From a virus, in IMG/VR virus record IMGVR_UViG_3300020390_000012, positions 1-30,167 of that record: a DNA stretch of 30,167 nt. One strand, written 5' to 3'. The position numbers were made by a program, and so were the translations under genes. Below, piece by piece: positions 2,672 through 26,015 of this stretch. Position 1 is the first letter of the stretch. Each line of letters opens with the position of its first letter. The notes under the pieces were generated by a model. It worked only from the letters and a program-made list of their open reading frames with translations. It made no database searches and was not told where the DNA came from.

Positions 2672-2995
2672 TCAGGAACCAAACATTAATTTTTTACGTA
2701 ATTTTTGATCTATTTGTGTTCTAGAATTTAATTTACCTACAGATCCAGGAAATTCATTTAAAAACTTTAGATCTCTAACCATTTTTTCTTTTAAAAGTTC
2801 AATGATTTCATTTGTATCAATAATCGAACCTCCTTCAAATTTCAAACCTACCAAAACACCATCTTTAATAGAAACACCATACCCGAGATCCTGATCCGGT
2901 ACCGGTGAATTACCTCTTAATGCTTTTTCAGGATCTGATTGCTCAGGCATCGCAATCTTAGACCCATTGGCCATTGTTAGATATTTTTTACTCAT
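2672..2995 (-). CDS. 107-residue accessory protein, unknown
   Basis: Last gene of the leftward cassette downstream of the terminase. It is a soluble protein with a short N-terminal variable segment, a central glycine-rich beta-like portion (residues 35-60) and a basic helical tail. Its ATG overlaps the stop of the upstream 43-residue gene (ATGA), indicating translational coupling. Its first residues (MSKKY) repeat those of that neighbour. No family recognised; the position suggests accessory cargo rather than a virion part. Confidence 0.65.
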   Translation of the reverse strand: MSKKYLTMANGSKIAMPEQSDPEKALRGNSPVPDQDLGYGVSIKDGVLVGLKFEGGSIIDTNEIIELLKEKMVRDLKFLNEFPGSVGKLNSRTQIDQKLRKKLMFGS

Positions 2996-3123
2996 CGATA
3001 TTTTTCTTTTAATTGAAAGCCCAAGGGATTCAGTACATGTTTTTCAAAATTCAAGAGAGCCGGTTTAAAACTTTCTTTTAATTCATCTATTGAATCGCTA
3101 AGTGATTTATACTTTTTACTCAT
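2992..3123 (-). CDS. 43-residue small protein in accessory cassette
   Basis: ATG at 3123 to TGA at 2992 gives 43 residues beginning MSKKYKSLSDSIDELKESF. It overlaps the stop of the gene upstream by 8 nt and the start of the gene downstream by 3 nt, so the spacing fits a real coupled gene. The sequence predicts one long amphipathic helix. Function unknown; it could be a small partner or antidote-type subunit of a neighbour, which is inference only. Confidence 0.55.
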   Translation of the reverse strand: MSKKYKSLSDSIDELKESFKPALLNFEKHVLNPLGFQLKEKYR

Positions 3124-6480: not shown

Positions 6481-7078
6481 CTATAAATAATTTAGGGTTA
6501 TCAATCAAAGCTTCACGCTTGGCCATCAAACGTTCTTTTTCGGTAAGTGCCGGCAGTTCATCAATAAACTTAGCCAGGTCATAGCGGTTAATAGTAGGTA
6601 GTCCCAAATATTCAGGACTTAAGGAGTACATTTTAAATGGTTTACTGAGTAATTCCTCTGGAAAAGGAACAGGATCCGGTTCATCCAATCGCAGTACTTT
6701 AGCCAGAGAAAGCAAACTCTTATTACTACGTTCCATATCCTGAACGGTCATTGCCATCGTACGCATTACACTGATGTTTTTGTACATAGACTCTGCAATA
6801 ATACCACGCCATGCGTCTCTGGAGAGCTGCTTATCTGCGTGAAAATATTCCATAGCAGTATCGTGATACTTCGCTGCCATATAATGGCTGAGACCGTCAA
6901 ATTTGGTAAGGTGTTTTATAATGGCATCACGAGAACCATACTGGTCAAAGCGCACATGCATACCCCGTACTTTTTCCATCATTTCAACAAACTCCACAAT
7001 CTCAGGCGGAGCTTTGCTAAAATCCCCGTGATCGCGAAACTCAATGATGTGCTCCAGTTCTATATCCTCAATGCGCAT
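6452..7078 (-). CDS. Terminase-associated 208-residue protein, unknown
   Basis: An almost entirely helical, charged protein with several Asp/Glu and His residues and no membrane segment. It lies between the small and large terminase genes and overlaps terL by 29 nt, an arrangement that implies a packaging role or a small-subunit accessory. I do not recognise a domain. It might be the C-terminal part of a small subunit that in other phages is a single polypeptide with the preceding gene. Confidence 0.7.
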   Translation of the reverse strand: MRIEDIELEHIIEFRDHGDFSKAPPEIVEFVEMMEKVRGMHVRFDQYGSRDAIIKHLTKFDGLSHYMAAKYHDTAMEYFHADKQLSRDAWRGIIAESMYKNISVMRTMAMTVQDMERSNKSLLSLAKVLRLDEPDPVPFPEELLSKPFKMYSLSPEYLGLPTINRYDLAKFIDELPALTEKERLMAKREALIDNPKLFIDVGEDPRST

Positions 7079-7719: not shown

Positions 7720-8340
7720 TTACTCATTCACCGGTACCAGTTTCCCGGCTACCGTTTTATACCTAATCTCCGTATGTGCAAAAAGCTCTTTTCTAAACTC
7801 AAAGAGTCCGCGGCTTTCTGCAAAGGTGTATTGCTCATACTTGGCATTCTCGCTCCAGTTCCCGGAACCTTCAACCACAAAATGATGTTCTGCAGTTCTG
7901 GCCAAAGCCACCTTTGCGTGAATCCACCCAAACAGCACTTCAACATTTCCCCTGGTACTTTGCATTGCTAATAAATTATCAATCGTCTGGGGGTTCCGCT
8001 TGATCATGCTATCGCTAATTAGAAGCGTTACCCGGGCGATCATACCGGTATCGTGCAGCTCCATAATAGCATCAATTACCCTGCGGCTAATACTGTAGGT
8101 CGTAGCGTACAAATGCTCTATATGAAAAGGCTTGGCTATAAAAGGGATGAACGTAAACGCATTAAAGGATGCTGCACTCTGCAGGAAGATGAATTCATCT
8201 TTGGTAGGCAACCGGTGCAGATCTTCCTCGAGACTCTCGAGCTTTTTAAAATGCGTTGCCAGGTATTTAGATCGATAAGGCAAGGAGGCTTTGGCTTTCG
8301 CCACTTCCTCCTTACGCTTATTTAAATCAAATAGACTCAT
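7720..8340 (-). CDS. Phospholipase D-like phage protein
   Basis: A 206-residue protein with one HKD-type half-motif: HAK (141-143) followed by GSGNWS (158-163), the pattern of PLD-superfamily active sites (HxK...N/GS). Enzymes of the family act as dimers when only one motif is present. The N-terminal 45 residues are a charged helix. It overlaps the acidic 385-residue gene by 14 nt and sits in the head/packaging region, so a virion or DNA-processing role is likely; substrate unknown. Confidence 0.65.
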   Translation of the reverse strand: MSLFDLNKRKEEVAKAKASLPYRSKYLATHFKKLESLEEDLHRLPTKDEFIFLQSAASFNAFTFIPFIAKPFHIEHLYATTYSISRRVIDAIMELHDTGMIARVTLLISDSMIKRNPQTIDNLLAMQSTRGNVEVLFGWIHAKVALARTAEHHFVVEGSGNWSENAKYEQYTFAESRGLFEFRKELFAHTEIRYKTVAGKLVPVNE

Positions 8341-9609: not shown

Positions 9610-10437
9610 TTATCTTCGGGCCACCTCTCTAAAAAAGAGTGTGGTACCATCGTCAAATACCTGTAAATCGATCGTCGCATCGCTAAGTGCTACCCAATCT
9701 GCACCGCCCACGAGCTGAACGGTTCCTGCAGTTCCAGCACCGTTGCTCAAGGTAGCCGGACTAGCACCACCGCCACCAATTAGGGTAACAATATCACCGT
9801 GCTCCAGGTCTGTAGCTGCAATGTCGATCGCATCTGCAGCTGCTGAAGTTGGTAATTTGTAAAATGCACCATTAGCTGCTGTAAGACTCAATTCAAAGTC
9901 AGCAGGCTCATACGGTGCCGCTAAAGCTATAGCACCTTCATACGTAGCCGGTACATAGCTTGTGCGCTGCACACTTGCAAAGGTGAAGGTAAAACCTGTA
10001 CGCTCGTTATCTGCAGTAAAAGACCCTTGTAATTTTAAAGGCGCGCAAGGCGAACCATAGAGTTCTTTTCCTGTAGCGTTGTTGCATCCGCTCCAGATCG
10101 CAATAAATCCACGACCGATGTTGTTTTGAAAGAATTCTTTTGCCTCCAACTGATTCCCCGGGTGCATCCCTTCAATTTGATGAATAAAAGACTCGCTGTC
10201 TTCTTCTCCTTCACTTTCATAAGATGGAGTTTGAGTACTTGGAGTCAAGTACAACTCAATCATATTTGCTCCAGGCTTCAGAACAATATTTCCTATCATT
10301 CTCACGCCTTTACTATCTCTGGAGGGCAGCGTTAAAATATCTGTAGTATCTACCAAAACGATATCTGCTTTCTTCGCAGTTACCGCACCGGCATTACTTT
10401 TTACAGGCTTTTTTAAGCTAAACATTAATCCACTCAT
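9610..10437 (-). CDS. Structural protein (tail tube or capsid decoration candidate)
   Basis: 275 residues, beta-rich, Gly/Ala/Thr-rich, no signal or membrane segment. Residues about 195-275 form a module (starts 'DIAATDLEHGDIVTLIGGGG', ends with a VxLxD...FREVARR strand) that resembles the C-terminal 85 residues of the neighbouring major capsid protein. A terminator stands on each side, as expected for a highly expressed virion protein. The N-terminal domain could be a decoration/fibre or a tube protein; the sequence alone does not decide. Confidence 0.6.
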   Translation of the reverse strand: MSGLMFSLKKPVKSNAGAVTAKKADIVLVDTTDILTLPSRDSKGVRMIGNIVLKPGANMIELYLTPSTQTPSYESEGEEDSESFIHQIEGMHPGNQLEAKEFFQNNIGRGFIAIWSGCNNATGKELYGSPCAPLKLQGSFTADNERTGFTFTFASVQRTSYVPATYEGAIALAAPYEPADFELSLTAANGAFYKLPTSAAADAIDIAATDLEHGDIVTLIGGGGASPATLSNGAGTAGTVQLVGGADWVALSDATIDLQVFDDGTTLFFREVARR

Positions 10438-19203: not shown

Positions 19204-19602
19204 ATGCAAATTATCGAAGAAACCACTGCTCTTGGAGTTCCATTTTGTCACTTCAAAACGATAATTCACTCTAATCAATATAATATCACCTTTACAAAAG
19301 GTGAAAATAAAAACCAATACGAAGTTCACTTAATTCCTCTCCATATAAAAAGAAAGGACAATAAAGTGATGTTCGACAGAGATTTAAGAACATTTGTTTG
19401 TAACAAAATTTATGATTTCATTCAAGCTAAAGACTGTGAAGTTTATTTTAGTTTAAACTGTGTAGGATTAGGTAATGAATATTTACTATGGAAATTTATA
19501 AGGTGGATAAAAAGTTTCGACAGACCTATCAATATTAAAAGTAAAGTTACAGTGAGTAAAGATGGGTCTATTAGGTTTTTCGAATTCTTTTTAAACATAT
19601 AG
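19204..19602 (+). CDS. 132-residue moron protein, distantly DUF6169-like
   Basis: Starts at ATG 19204, one codon after a TTG. Strand-rich N terminus ('YNITFTKGENKNQYEVHLIP', 28-47), a helix (65-78), then strand and an aromatic helix (about 100-110). The order resembles DUF6169, but this is a faint pattern match only. With the 56-residue gene it forms an AT-rich two-gene unit pointing against both flanking operons, typical of independently expressed cargo in temperate phages, often defence or superinfection genes; that is inference. Confidence 0.55.
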   Translation: MQIIEETTALGVPFCHFKTIIHSNQYNITFTKGENKNQYEVHLIPLHIKRKDNKVMFDRDLRTFVCNKIYDFIQAKDCEVYFSLNCVGLGNEYLLWKFIRWIKSFDRPINIKSKVTVSKDGSIRFFEFFLNI

Positions 19603-19788: not shown

Positions 19789-20847
19789 CTATTTGCTTTC
19801 TTTATTAAAATAAACCAGGTAGTAATACATCTGGCGTTCTTCATCCCAACCTTTCTCGATGAATTTGTCATAACTCTCCGGGTTAATGAAATTCATCTTG
19901 ATGGCCACGTTGGTGTCTAGCTCAATCAAACTTTTAAAGTTCTTCGTCGCCGGTGCGATCGCTTCGTTTGATATTGCGAAGCTGCTCAGGTCCTCGATAC
20001 TGTATTTAGATCCTTTATCTAATTTATAATTTTCATACTCTGCCTGCAGTCCCGGATCCCCCAGAACCTCGGTGAGAAATTCATCCTGATCCCACGTGTC
20101 GTGCGTTCGAAAATGATTGATCGCTCGATTCATAAATAAGAGCTCCTCGCGTTTATCACCTGCAGGGCGCACCACATCTTTAGCGAAATCCTGACAGAAC
20201 TTGAGATACTTCTTCGTGTGAAAATGATCATCGTGCAAGGCATCGATGCCCATCACGTTTTCAAACCAATACTTCGTATCATATTTATAGGAATCCACAC
20301 ACAGAATATTGAACCCTGATTCTTGATCGGTATTGATGATGATGGCGCCTTTGTCTAGCTTGCCTAAATGCACACCTTCCTGAAGCAGTAATTCTAATTG
20401 ATTCTCTCCAGTACGAAACTGAAGAAAATCGTGCTTGAGTTCGCTTTTAAAAATTCCGATCGCATTGAACTTTTCATTATCAACCATCACATTGCTGAGC
20501 TTGGCAAAATAAACTTCTCCCGGCTTGACGTGTGGATGATTACTTTGCGCATACATGTGCCGGCTTACCGCTCTTGCGTAATCTCCTAGTTTTAGAGCTC
20601 CACTAAAAAGATTGACCGATTGCCGGTACATCTCGTGAAAATCTAAATCTGACTCGTGTACAAATTGGTACCAGGCTCGATCCTTCTCTCTGAAGGATTT
20701 GAAAAAGAATTCTTTTACTAAAGGTCTTATCTCATCATTCAACTCCGTGCGGTGCTCGTTATAGATAACACCCTCACTACGTGTCTTATTGCCTACTTGA
20801 TTGATGAAGAGCTCCTCGATCTGGACGTTGTATAGATTTATGGCCAT
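19789..20847 (-). CDS. Nucleoid-associated NdpA-like protein
   Basis: A 352-residue soluble protein with the layout of the 37-kDa nucleoid-associated family (YejK/NdpA, PF04245): an N-terminal 'HVKPGEVYFAKLSNVMVDN' type strand pair around 105-125, a central 'AIGIFKSELKHDFL' strand, a 'GAIIINTDQESGFNILCVD' strand pair, a 'YWFENVMGI' segment and a conserved helical end. The family binds DNA; phage copies may organise phage DNA or displace the host nucleoid. It is near the end of the early operon, 3 nt after the gene upstream. Confidence 0.75.
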   Translation of the reverse strand: MAINLYNVQIEELFINQVGNKTRSEGVIYNEHRTELNDEIRPLVKEFFFKSFREKDRAWYQFVHESDLDFHEMYRQSVNLFSGALKLGDYARAVSRHMYAQSNHPHVKPGEVYFAKLSNVMVDNEKFNAIGIFKSELKHDFLQFRTGENQLELLLQEGVHLGKLDKGAIIINTDQESGFNILCVDSYKYDTKYWFENVMGIDALHDDHFHTKKYLKFCQDFAKDVVRPAGDKREELLFMNRAINHFRTHDTWDQDEFLTEVLGDPGLQAEYENYKLDKGSKYSIEDLSSFAISNEAIAPATKNFKSLIELDTNVAIKMNFINPESYDKFIEKGWDEERQMYYYLVYFNKESK

Positions 20848-24788: not shown

Positions 24789-24819
24789 ACACTTTAGTCA
24801 ATAAAATCCCTTGTCGGCT

Positions 24820-24952
24820 CCCGATAGCTATCGGGATGCCAGCTTCGTTAAATTCAGGCAATAAAAAGCCTGTGCGCCTAAAGCGCATTTTTTAAAACCC
24901 GGACATTGAGTCCGTTATGTTAGGGCAGTTTTTGCCCAGGCCACCTTGTGGC
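24820..24952 (-). ncRNA. Array of six small hairpins
   Basis: In transcription order: GCCAC-AAG-GTGGC (24940-24952), GGGCA/TGCCC (24923-24937), CGGAC/GTCCG (24900-24914), TGCGC/GCGCA (24873-24887), CAGGC/GCCTG (24855-24872), CCCGATAG/CTATCGGG (24820-24835). The first five have 5-bp stems, three of them with 5-nt loops, spaced 0-12 nt apart; sequences differ but the form is kept. It follows the tRNA-like cluster and precedes the winged-helix gene. No T run marks any of them as a clear terminator. Confidence 0.6.
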
Positions 24953-24977
24953 TATTTTTTAAAGATTCCGACAGCGC

Positions 24978-24994
24978 TCAGGACTCGAACCTGA
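24978..24994 (-). ncRNA. Orphan T arm (tRNA-like element A)
   Basis: TCAGG-TTCGAGT-CCTGA is a perfect T arm with the standard loop, followed by GCGCTGT. No full 5' acceptor strand is found; the best candidate is ACAGC at the right foot of the hairpin at 25099-25117, giving 5 bp and an element of about 135 nt. It may be a broken or unrecognised member of the series. Confidence 0.45.
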
Positions 24995-25179
24995 AATGAT
25001 CTCCTCAGATTACGCTAGTTCCGGTGGGGTTCCTTTTCATTCCCCGGCCAAAGTCAGCAGCATAGATTAACTGTTTACGCGGCACAAACATCTTTTAAAG
25101 GCTGTTCTATGCAGCCTCTATCTATTCCCGTATTTCTTAAACCATAAAGGCCCCGGGATTCATCAATCATAAATTATTG

Positions 25180-25232
25180 TGATCTGGTAGGGATTCGAAC
25201 CCCGAAGCTCCTGCATGCATTCGCTCCAGATC
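25180..25232 (-). ncRNA. Minimal tRNA-like element B (53 nt)
   Basis: GATCTGG (from 25232) pairs over 7 bp with CCAGATC, discriminator A; T loop TTCGAAT in a stem of GGGG/CCCT. Between the acceptor and the T arm only about 22 nt remain, enough for one short AGC/GCT arm but not both a D and an anticodon arm. It cannot be a normal tRNA. Hairpins CACCG-AAAAG-CGGTG and CCTGTTT/AAACAGG lie directly upstream in the spacer. Confidence 0.55.
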
Positions 25233-25346
25233 GCCACCGCTTTTCGGTGAAGCACCTGTTTTTTCCTCGAAACAGGGAAACACCCGAGCAAATTTGAGTT
25301 TTGTTTTCAGTGCGTGTCTCTGCTCGGGAGAATATCCGCACATTCG

Positions 25347-25419
25347 CAACGCGACCAGGGCTCGAACCTGAAACCTTCGGTTTTGGAGACCGACGCTCTA
25401 CCAATTGAGCTATCACGCT
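25347..25419 (-). tRNA. tRNA-Trp (CCA anticodon)
   Basis: A canonical 73-nt cloverleaf: acceptor AGCGTGA with TCGCGTT (two G-T pairs, one at each level), D arm GCTC-AATTGGTA-GAGC, anticodon stem TCGGT/ACCGA with loop CTCCAAA (anticodon CCA), T arm TCAGG-TTCGAGC-CCTGG, discriminator G as tryptophan tRNAs require. The 3' CCA is not encoded. It is the only ordinary tRNA of the cluster. Confidence 0.93.
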
Positions 25420-25422
25420 AAG

Positions 25423-25445
25423 TTGCTAGTCTGTTCCTAGCAGTC
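25423..25445 (-). repeat. Leader hairpin, copy 1
   Basis: GACTGCTAGGAACAGACTAGCAA on the - strand folds as TGCTAG/CTAGCA; it ends a few nt before the tRNA-Trp. A near-identical copy precedes element D (25640-25661). Confidence 0.6.
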
Positions 25446-25528
25446 ACGAGTCTGCAACGCTTCGAGTGTCTATCGATCCGCACTGGTCTCCCACCTGTTG
25501 GTTATTCGATAATTAATTGCGGCTTACG

Positions 25529-25637
25529 TGATCAAGAGAGGAATCGAACCTCAAACCGTGGTCCCCGATCTATGAGCATAGTTCCCACGTCTTATTTTTG
25601 CACCTGACTCGGGTTAGCCGCCTTCGGCCACTTGATC
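25529..25637 (-). tRNA. tRNA-like element D (109 nt), candidate tRNA-Leu(CAG) with 33-nt insert
   Basis: Acceptor GATCAAG/CTTGATC is perfect, discriminator A, TG at 8-9, D arm GCC-GAAGGC-GGC, T arm GAGG-TTCGATT-CCTC. CCCGA (25609-25613) pairs with TCGGG (25564-25568) as a 5-bp anticodon stem around a 40-nt loop GTCAGG...A. Removing 33 nt after the sixth loop base leaves GTCAGGA, a valid loop with U33, anticodon CAG and G37. A73 and a long variable region also fit leucine. The junction is the 37/38 position used by archaeal and eukaryotic introns. No known splicing signal was confirmed. Confidence 0.5.
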
Positions 25638-25639
25638 AA

Positions 25640-25661
25640 TTGCTAGTCTTTCCTAGCAGTC
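25640..25661 (-). repeat. Leader hairpin, copy 2
   Basis: GACTGCTAGGAAAGACTAGCAA on the - strand, one base shorter than the copy before tRNA-Trp and otherwise the same. An alternative longer stem CAATTGCT/AGCAATTG with sequence further upstream competes with it. Confidence 0.6.
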
Positions 25662-25776
25662 CCAATTTTTTCCCTTGTTAAGCAATTGGTTTGCCTCAAA
25701 AACCTCAAGGGTTTTGGGGAGATGAACTCTAGCCGGCACGGATCTCCATTCTCGTGACTTCCCCGGCAAGTATTTG

Positions 25777-25920
25777 TGATCAAGACAGGACTCGAACCTG
25801 CACGAAAAGCCTTCCATAACGCGATTTTTATTTCCTGTCTTTACAGAGGATGCTTCCATTGCACCGTTTTTCGTAGCTTTTCTATCCGTAGTTAGCGTCT
25901 ACCAATTCCGCCACTTGATC
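25777..25920 (-). ncRNA. tRNA-like element E (144 nt), class-II-like ends, no clear anticodon
   Basis: Acceptor GATCAAG/CTTGATC is identical to that of element D, with TG, a textbook leucine-type D arm GCGGAATTGGTAGACGC, T arm GCAGG-TTCGAGT-CCTGT and A73. The centre is 95 nt. TAAC (25891-25894) can pair with GTTA (25817-25820), and GAAAAGC (25876-25882) with GCTTTTC (25804-25810), the two helices crossing. A 5-bp/7-nt hairpin GGTGC-AATGGAA-GCATC lies inside but lacks U33. Either an interrupted tRNA-Leu or a tRNA mimic. Confidence 0.5.
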
Positions 25921-25923
25921 ATT

Positions 25924-25993
25924 AAAAAAACCCGCTCTTAGCATTTACAACTAAAAAAATCTCAAATCATTTAACTTAACCTCGAGCGGGTTT
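25924..25993 (-). terminator. Terminator-like stem with 46-nt loop
   Basis: AAACCCGCTC and GAGCGGGTTT (10 bp) are separated by 46 nt and followed on the - strand by seven T, ending 3 nt before element E. It ends the upstream early operon or gates transcription of the RNA cluster. Confidence 0.6.
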
Positions 25994-26015
25994 AAAGCAC
26001 TCGCTTTAGGGTATT

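Follow-up and report, generated by a model that had tools for sequence, protein, structure and literature searches.

The window analysed here, i.e. the whole stretch of about 30 kb (30,167 nt) from an IMG/VR virus record, carries phage genes for a head-maturation protease and a tail fibre. It also encodes, on the minus strand (19789-20847), a 37-kDa nucleoid-associated protein (NA37, PF04245, E = 6e-35), which is unexpected in a small phage genome. The region 24800-25990, about 1.2 kb long, is largely non-coding and comprises, in the order of the minus strand, a terminator-like hairpin, the tRNA-like elements E and D, an ordinary tRNA-Trp, the tRNA-like element B, and a piece of lower quality, A (Table 1).

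Table 1. Features of the largely non-coding region of the window
Feature	Coordinates	Strand	Length (nt)	Sequence and remarks
Terminator-like hairpin	25923-25994	minus		AAACCCGCTC...GAGCGGGTTT, then T run; ends 3 nt before E
tRNA-like element E	25920-25777	minus	144	A73 at 25777
E, acceptor		minus		GATCAAG/CTTGATC; 7/7 pairs
E, D arm		minus		TGGCGGAATTGGTAGACGC; full, Leu-type
E, middle		minus	93	non-tRNA
E, helix S	25882-25876 and 25810-25804	minus		GAAAAGC + GCTTTTC; 2 nt before T stem
E, T arm		minus		GCAGG-TTCGAGT-CCTGT; stem 5/5, one G-U
Leader hairpin of D	25640-25661	minus		TGCTAG-GAAAGA-CTAGCA; directly 5' of D
tRNA-like element D	25637-25529	minus	109	A73 at 25529
D, acceptor		minus		GATCAAG/CTTGATC, as in E; 7/7 pairs
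D, D arm		minus		TGGCCGA-AGGC; short, D loop reduced
D, middle		minus	66	
D, predicted pseudoknot, first helix	25613-25609 and 25568-25564	minus		CCCGA + TCGGG
D, predicted pseudoknot, second helix	25589-25585 and 25561-25557	minus		CGTGG + CCACG
D, T arm		minus		TGAGG-TTCGATT-CCTCT; stem 4/5
tRNA-Trp(CCA), ordinary	25419-25346	minus		ARAGORN; Rfam 64.1 bits; CCA tail not encoded
tRNA-like element B	25232-25180	minus	53	A73 at 25180
B, acceptor		minus		GATCTGG/CCAGATC; 7/7 pairs
B, middle		minus	21	D arm not clearly present
B, T stem		minus		CGGGG/CCCTA; 4/5 only, T arm weak
Fragment A	24973-25025	minus		T arm good, acceptor poor

Elements E, D and B are alike in combining a perfect 7-bp acceptor, a T arm and A73 with the absence of an anticodon arm. 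Such elements are expected at 0.01 per dinucleotide-shuffled window, against three in the real one, and the original prediction of tRNA-like RNAs with intact acceptors around one ordinary tRNA-Trp is thus borne out. It had further credited all three with good T arms and E and D with D arms. T arms are indeed present in all three, but the stem is fully paired only in E; likewise, the D arm is full and of the Leu type in E, but shortened in D. The cluster had been proposed to start at 24978, where we do find the T arm of fragment A, but this piece is of lesser quality and has no perfect acceptor partner.

Compared with the canonical tRNA (RF00005), the 7-bp acceptor stem and the TTCRA T loop are present in E, D and B, and E has a D arm with the complete set of U8, A14 and G18G19; D has a shortened D loop, and the arm is missing from B. 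In agreement with the abnormal middles predicted earlier, neither ARAGORN nor Rfam detects an anticodon arm (5-bp stem, 7-nt loop, U33) in any of the three, and none is called as a tRNA by ARAGORN or by Rfam at the gathering threshold. At permissive Rfam thresholds, matches other than tRNA are at chance level, e.g. that of B to mascRNA, which under lax filters reaches 19.5 bits (E = 0.52) and falls below the cut-off. A tmRNA is not found in the window either: ARAGORN, run for both tRNA and tmRNA, calls only the tRNA-Trp, and the Rfam tmRNA match is a 9.9-bit fragment confined to a T arm.

Within the middle of E, helix S occupies the place where a class II variable arm has its 3' strand. The pseudoknot predicted in D, read off the sequence, has a p of about 0.07 against shuffles and is suggestive only. 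B and fragment A may be weaker members of the group, perhaps remnants. B is possibly a miniature representative or a remnant; elements of 47-58 nt with paired acceptors occur also in relatives (L078, L051, L104). Fragment A matches the 3' part of the tRNA-Trp at 78% over 32 nt and looks, by this resemblance, like a shortened tRNA-Trp.

The hairpin upstream of E, an inverted repeat of 10 bp without mismatches and with a T run after it, resembles an intrinsic terminator, so that transcription of E would need either read-through or a promoter located in the hairpin loop. Its near copy is found at the same position in a prophage of Leeuwenhoekiella marinoflava (L002, about 2946-3018, plus strand). 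A different hairpin lies directly 5' of D, and a near-identical one (TGCTAG...CTAGCA, 25423-25445) directly 5' of the tRNA-Trp, while E and B are devoid of it; this suggests a duplicated leader or a processing signal.

The 618-aa protein encoded next to the cluster has a sole relative in the viral and genome collections, namely in the prophage of L. marinoflava DSM 3653, the only one among the carrier phages for which the host is established. Between the same genes, this prophage possesses the upstream hairpin, a homolog of E (L002:3021-3152, plus strand) and the tRNA-Trp, while D, B and A are missing. The tRNA-Trp genes are identical at 72 of 73 positions and the end regions of E at 49 of 51. 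The middles of the two E elements, on the other hand, align no better than shuffled sequences (72 of 500 shuffles were as good). Constant ends combined with a free middle are the opposite of what decay predicts, and therefore E does not appear to be a decaying tRNA.

To find further members of this group, we scanned viral sequences for a Leu-type D arm and a T arm spaced by 65-95 nt, the acceptor not being part of the pattern, and obtained at least 120 loci. Among the 120 matches listed, 104 can form at least six of the seven acceptor pairs, against 1.3% by chance, and they do so with dozens of different acceptor sequences; the 16 matches without acceptor pairing are in part neighboring tRNAs and in part one-base slips. 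We then scanned with the 3' end that is most frequent (the AGTCAGG type), again obtaining at least 120 loci. In the loci of both scans taken together there are at least 290 AGTCAGG-type elements. ARAGORN misses 240 of them, and the 50 that it does call look mostly spurious, being scattered over 14 isotypes or "???". The elements are mainly 60-150 nt long and form part of tRNA islands, where genes and tRNAs surround them; a single phage has up to 9-11, and their middles, of which at least 234 are mutually dissimilar, differ even within one phage. The acceptor and T arms of the relatives, which random mutation should have eroded had the original prediction been wrong, are instead conserved and covarying. 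This agrees with its claim that the ends are under selection.

A search with the 3' end of E and D returned five viral loci, four of which represent such elements: the E homolog of the prophage, two GATCAAG elements of 118 and 141 nt, and an element with GGTCAAG that belongs to the family F1 described below; the fifth is an ordinary tRNA-Arg. As these matches include members of the class, we assign E and D to it, and there is little doubt in our minds that they are part of a large and conserved class of phage RNAs, with hundreds of members in environmental phages. None of 395 Bacteroidota genomes contains the AGTCAGG type, and in 199 Flavobacteriaceae genomes the long pattern of the Leu type picks up only the prophage and one artefact caused by tandem Leu tRNAs. 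BLAST searches of annotated phages with one element and with the cores of families F1 and F2 gave no match, and a BLAST with the short 3' end led to MW202828 (L247:523-629) and to the 735-kb LR756501 (L248), in both of which the elements are unannotated. For some members of the class Rfam 15 reports "tRNA" only, and its other families do not fit. Clustering of the ORFs from 164 loci did not reveal a shared protein partner, as the commonest family occurs in 17 loci only. We found no description of the class in the open-access literature, and it is apparently undescribed so far.

Several variants deserve separate mention. LR756501 possesses long tRNA-like elements at 6864-6980, 9917-10026 and 19409-19524, one of which has a class I D arm (TAGCTCAGTTGGTAGAGC); the phenomenon is thus not confined to Leu-type shells. 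Tandem long elements with class I D arms were found also in L107 (1505-1777) and L096, with similar inserts in one phage (CATGAGCCTACAAGC and CATGAGCCTACACGC) that constitute a separate insert family. Another family, of about 84 nt, is present in L151, L190, L199 and L202; it has the AGTCAGG acceptor, a conserved ATAGGTCGTAAGCCCTAA, and a covarying D stem (CTACA/TGTAG, CGACA/TGTCG). In the Tenacibaculum phage pT24 (L243) there is a near-identical pair annotated as "tRNA-Undet" (7790-7868 and 8157-8235), which ARAGORN reads as Ile(TAT).

The composition of the shell was calculated from 120 elements that had been found without the use of the D arm. U8 is present in 94% of them, A14 in 82%, A15 in 87%, G18G19 in 76%, U48 in 81% and A73 in 93%; A15 and U48 occur jointly in 74%, and A20a is retained in only 47%. 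In E. coli, leucine identity depends on A73, A15-U48, G18G19, A20a and contacts between the D and T loops, and a tRNA-Leu deprived of both its anticodon arm and its variable arm continues to be charged (PMC9976931). E has all of A73, A15-U48, G18G19 and A20a, and the whole set is found in 39 of the 41 normal Leu tRNAs of the same loci. Since much of it is shared by Gln, Ile and Arg tRNAs, the likeness to leucine rests on the complete set together with the TGGCGGAATTGGTAGACGC arm. To judge from these positions, the phage RNAs seem to keep the parts needed by LeuRS and to replace the dispensable ones, and for this reason we infer that they mature as tRNAs and may be leucylated, and that they cannot decode. 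The Leu-like features may also have been inherited rather than used, and the AGTCAGG acceptor differs from those of the host Leu tRNAs. The class has, in addition, a mark of its own, the T stem RCAGG, present in 29 of 45 elements with other acceptors, against 24 of 296 ordinary tRNAs and none of the 41 Leu tRNAs. C74 is nearly universal in the class, but ordinary tRNAs from these phages have it just as often. The leaders favor A at position -4 and U at -1, a combination that suits bacterial RNase P.

Analysis of the 234 middles reveals no common sequence motif beyond displaced pieces of the D arm. They are more structured than their shuffled versions (mean z -0.64, standard error 0.065), and the only feature of the middle found throughout the class is helix S, whose 3' strand ends precisely 2 nt ahead of the T stem, i.e. 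at the position of the class II variable arm, in 40 of 127 cases, with 12.5 +/- 3.3 expected. Its 5' strand mostly begins 9-25 nt past the D arm, so that a large loop is enclosed. Pseudoknots formed across this helix were seen in single cases (E, D, L002 and the L027 family), while a universal H-type pseudoknot was not significant class-wide (11.1 vs 10.3 +/- 0.35; 8% at p <= 0.05). A role as antisense guides finds no support within the same locus, where the complementarity of the middles does not exceed that of shuffles (longest complement 10.1 vs 10.0 nt). Some elements, including several F1 members, carry an additional hairpin in the D loop, directly in front of G18G19, that leaves the elbow bases undisturbed; it occurs in L052 (17-161), L261, L264, L268, L272, L277, L278, L091 (843-975), L111, L173 and L099.

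Two families of middles are conserved: F1 in at least 23 contigs and F2 in at least 41, each of them within shells of varying acceptors, T stems and D loops. In the F1 structure 98.7% of cells are paired and 15 of the 28 pairs show two-sided changes; the corresponding values for F2 are 99.5% and 10 of 19, and in either family none of 500 shuffles was as good. The strands of the F1 pseudoknot and a part of that of F2 had been prescribed in the search patterns and carry no information on covariation. The middles of E and D belong neither to F1 or F2 nor to any other conserved family found here.

Among the possibilities raised by the original prediction, tRNA mimicry turned out to be the most plausible heading. 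The explanation we lean towards, on balance, is that E and D are non-decoding tRNA mimics, in which a leucine-type shell holds an exchangeable structured domain. Selection keeps the shell, i.e. the acceptor stem, A73, the D arm with A14, A15 and G18G19, U48 and the T arm, and a structured RNA domain stands in for the anticodon and variable arms. According to the proposed mechanism, the elements would be transcribed within the phage tRNA island, trimmed like tRNAs by RNase P and the 3' machinery of the host, and provided with CCA. The L-shaped shell could then confer stability, recognition as a tRNA, and perhaps leucylation, and the inserted domain, distinct in each paralog, would bind a specific partner, be it an RNA or a host factor involved in defence or translation. 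The RNA would thus act as an effector or decoy delivered by a tRNA and would never decode.

The main competitor is that the elements are pure decoys, of which only the acceptor-elbow half matters, titrating a host factor directed at the ends or elbows of tRNAs. Their targets might be e.g. CCA-tail nucleases (Cas12a3), tRNA-modifying toxins, variable-loop nucleases (Septu) or LeuRS itself, and the middles would merely avoid decoding and block recombination between copies. The constant ends with very different middles in one phage and the presence of multiple copies per phage speak for such decoys, as do the known host defences that engage the acceptor, T arm and CCA tail or cleave the variable loop; phage tRNA has been proposed to serve as a "decoy or supplement" (PMC12851939, PMC13096335). 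Mere filler, however, would not need middles that are conserved and covarying over as many contigs as those of F1 and F2. Because the middles form conserved families, we favor scaffolded effectors, and regard the restriction to pure decoys as rather unlikely.

The elements might also be tRNA-like hairpins whose sole role is to mark where RNase P and RNase Z cleave a polycistronic RNA, another possibility considered originally. The RNase P-like preference of the leaders and the location in islands amid genes and tRNAs are consistent with such punctuation, but the AGTCAGG acceptor, the RCAGG T stem and A15-U48 exceed what RNase P needs, and the conserved, covarying middles, for which a processing signal has no use, are left unexplained; we consider this reading improbable. 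Very improbable, in our opinion, are interrupted tRNAs, likewise considered originally, from which an unknown splicing reaction removes the insert to give decoding tRNAs. The ends and the D and T arms are tRNA-perfect, a 5-bp stem at the anticodon position surrounds the insert in L043, L070 and L108, and helices that begin just past the D arm are slightly enriched, all of which would suit splicing. Against it, hidden anticodon arms (5-bp stem, 7-nt loop, U33 and R37) are not enriched in the 234 middles (16 vs 13.6 expected), the middles share no splice-site motif, several F1 members have inserts in the D loop, and group I and II intron families are not called; furthermore, RtcB is encoded in none of 25 carrier records and a T4-type tRNA ligase in only five. 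Finally, descent by decay from a phage tRNA-Leu, suggested by the Leu-like shell, by the poor quality of B and A, and by the resemblance of A to a shortened tRNA-Trp, is possible for A and B, but is contradicted for E, D and the class, which is too frequent and too uniform and whose ends are conserved and covarying while the middles vary, and as a general account it is barely credible.

Of the known systems, the engineered "tRNA scaffold" comes close in architecture, as it retains the acceptor stem and the T and D arms and has an RNA inserted for the anticodon arm, and the fusion is handled as a tRNA and protected in E. coli (PMC3753655). The phage elements differ in being natural, phage-borne and arrayed, with a Leu-type shell, and their inserts take also the position of the variable arm and form covarying families. 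With tRNAs encoded by phages, among them those that escape tRNA-cutting defences (PMC10264068), they share the tRNA islands, the same ends and probably the same maturation, but they have no anticodon arm, measure about 50-150 nt, and are unable to decode. tmRNA (RF00023 and its relatives) also has tRNA-like ends, a long middle that contains pseudoknots, and no anticodon; the elements, however, have a real D stem, are less than half its size, have no established tag frame, and lack the alanine determinant G3-U70, position 3-70 being T-A in both GATCAAG and AGTCAGG. mascRNA and menRNA (RF01684) and the 3' tRNA-like structures of plant viruses are likewise small RNAs that mimic tRNA in order to be processed or to recruit proteins, but they show no homology to the elements, which are free-standing genes in bacterial viruses. 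The theta (HDV-like) ribozymes are structured RNAs accompanying tRNAs of Bacteroidota phages (PMC10879173); they are located 3' of complete tRNAs, whereas in the elements the structured RNA lies within the tRNA shell.

More broadly, and tentatively, the elements could represent a new and widespread class of phage non-coding RNAs, free-standing, unable to decode and encoded in arrays, in which a leucine-acceptor shell is the shared handle for interchangeable pseudoknotted effectors, one per partner, that counter the defences or the translation of the host. The tRNA islands of phages are commonly viewed as a source of codon supplements or of replacements for cut tRNAs. If many phages carry non-decoding RNAs of tRNA shape, these islands would contain a second, overlooked class of genes, which programs for tRNA detection pass over or wrongly label with isotypes that are spurious or undetermined. 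Their architecture would be a natural precedent of the engineered tRNA scaffold, and the conserved inner domains are candidates for anti-defence or host-takeover RNAs.
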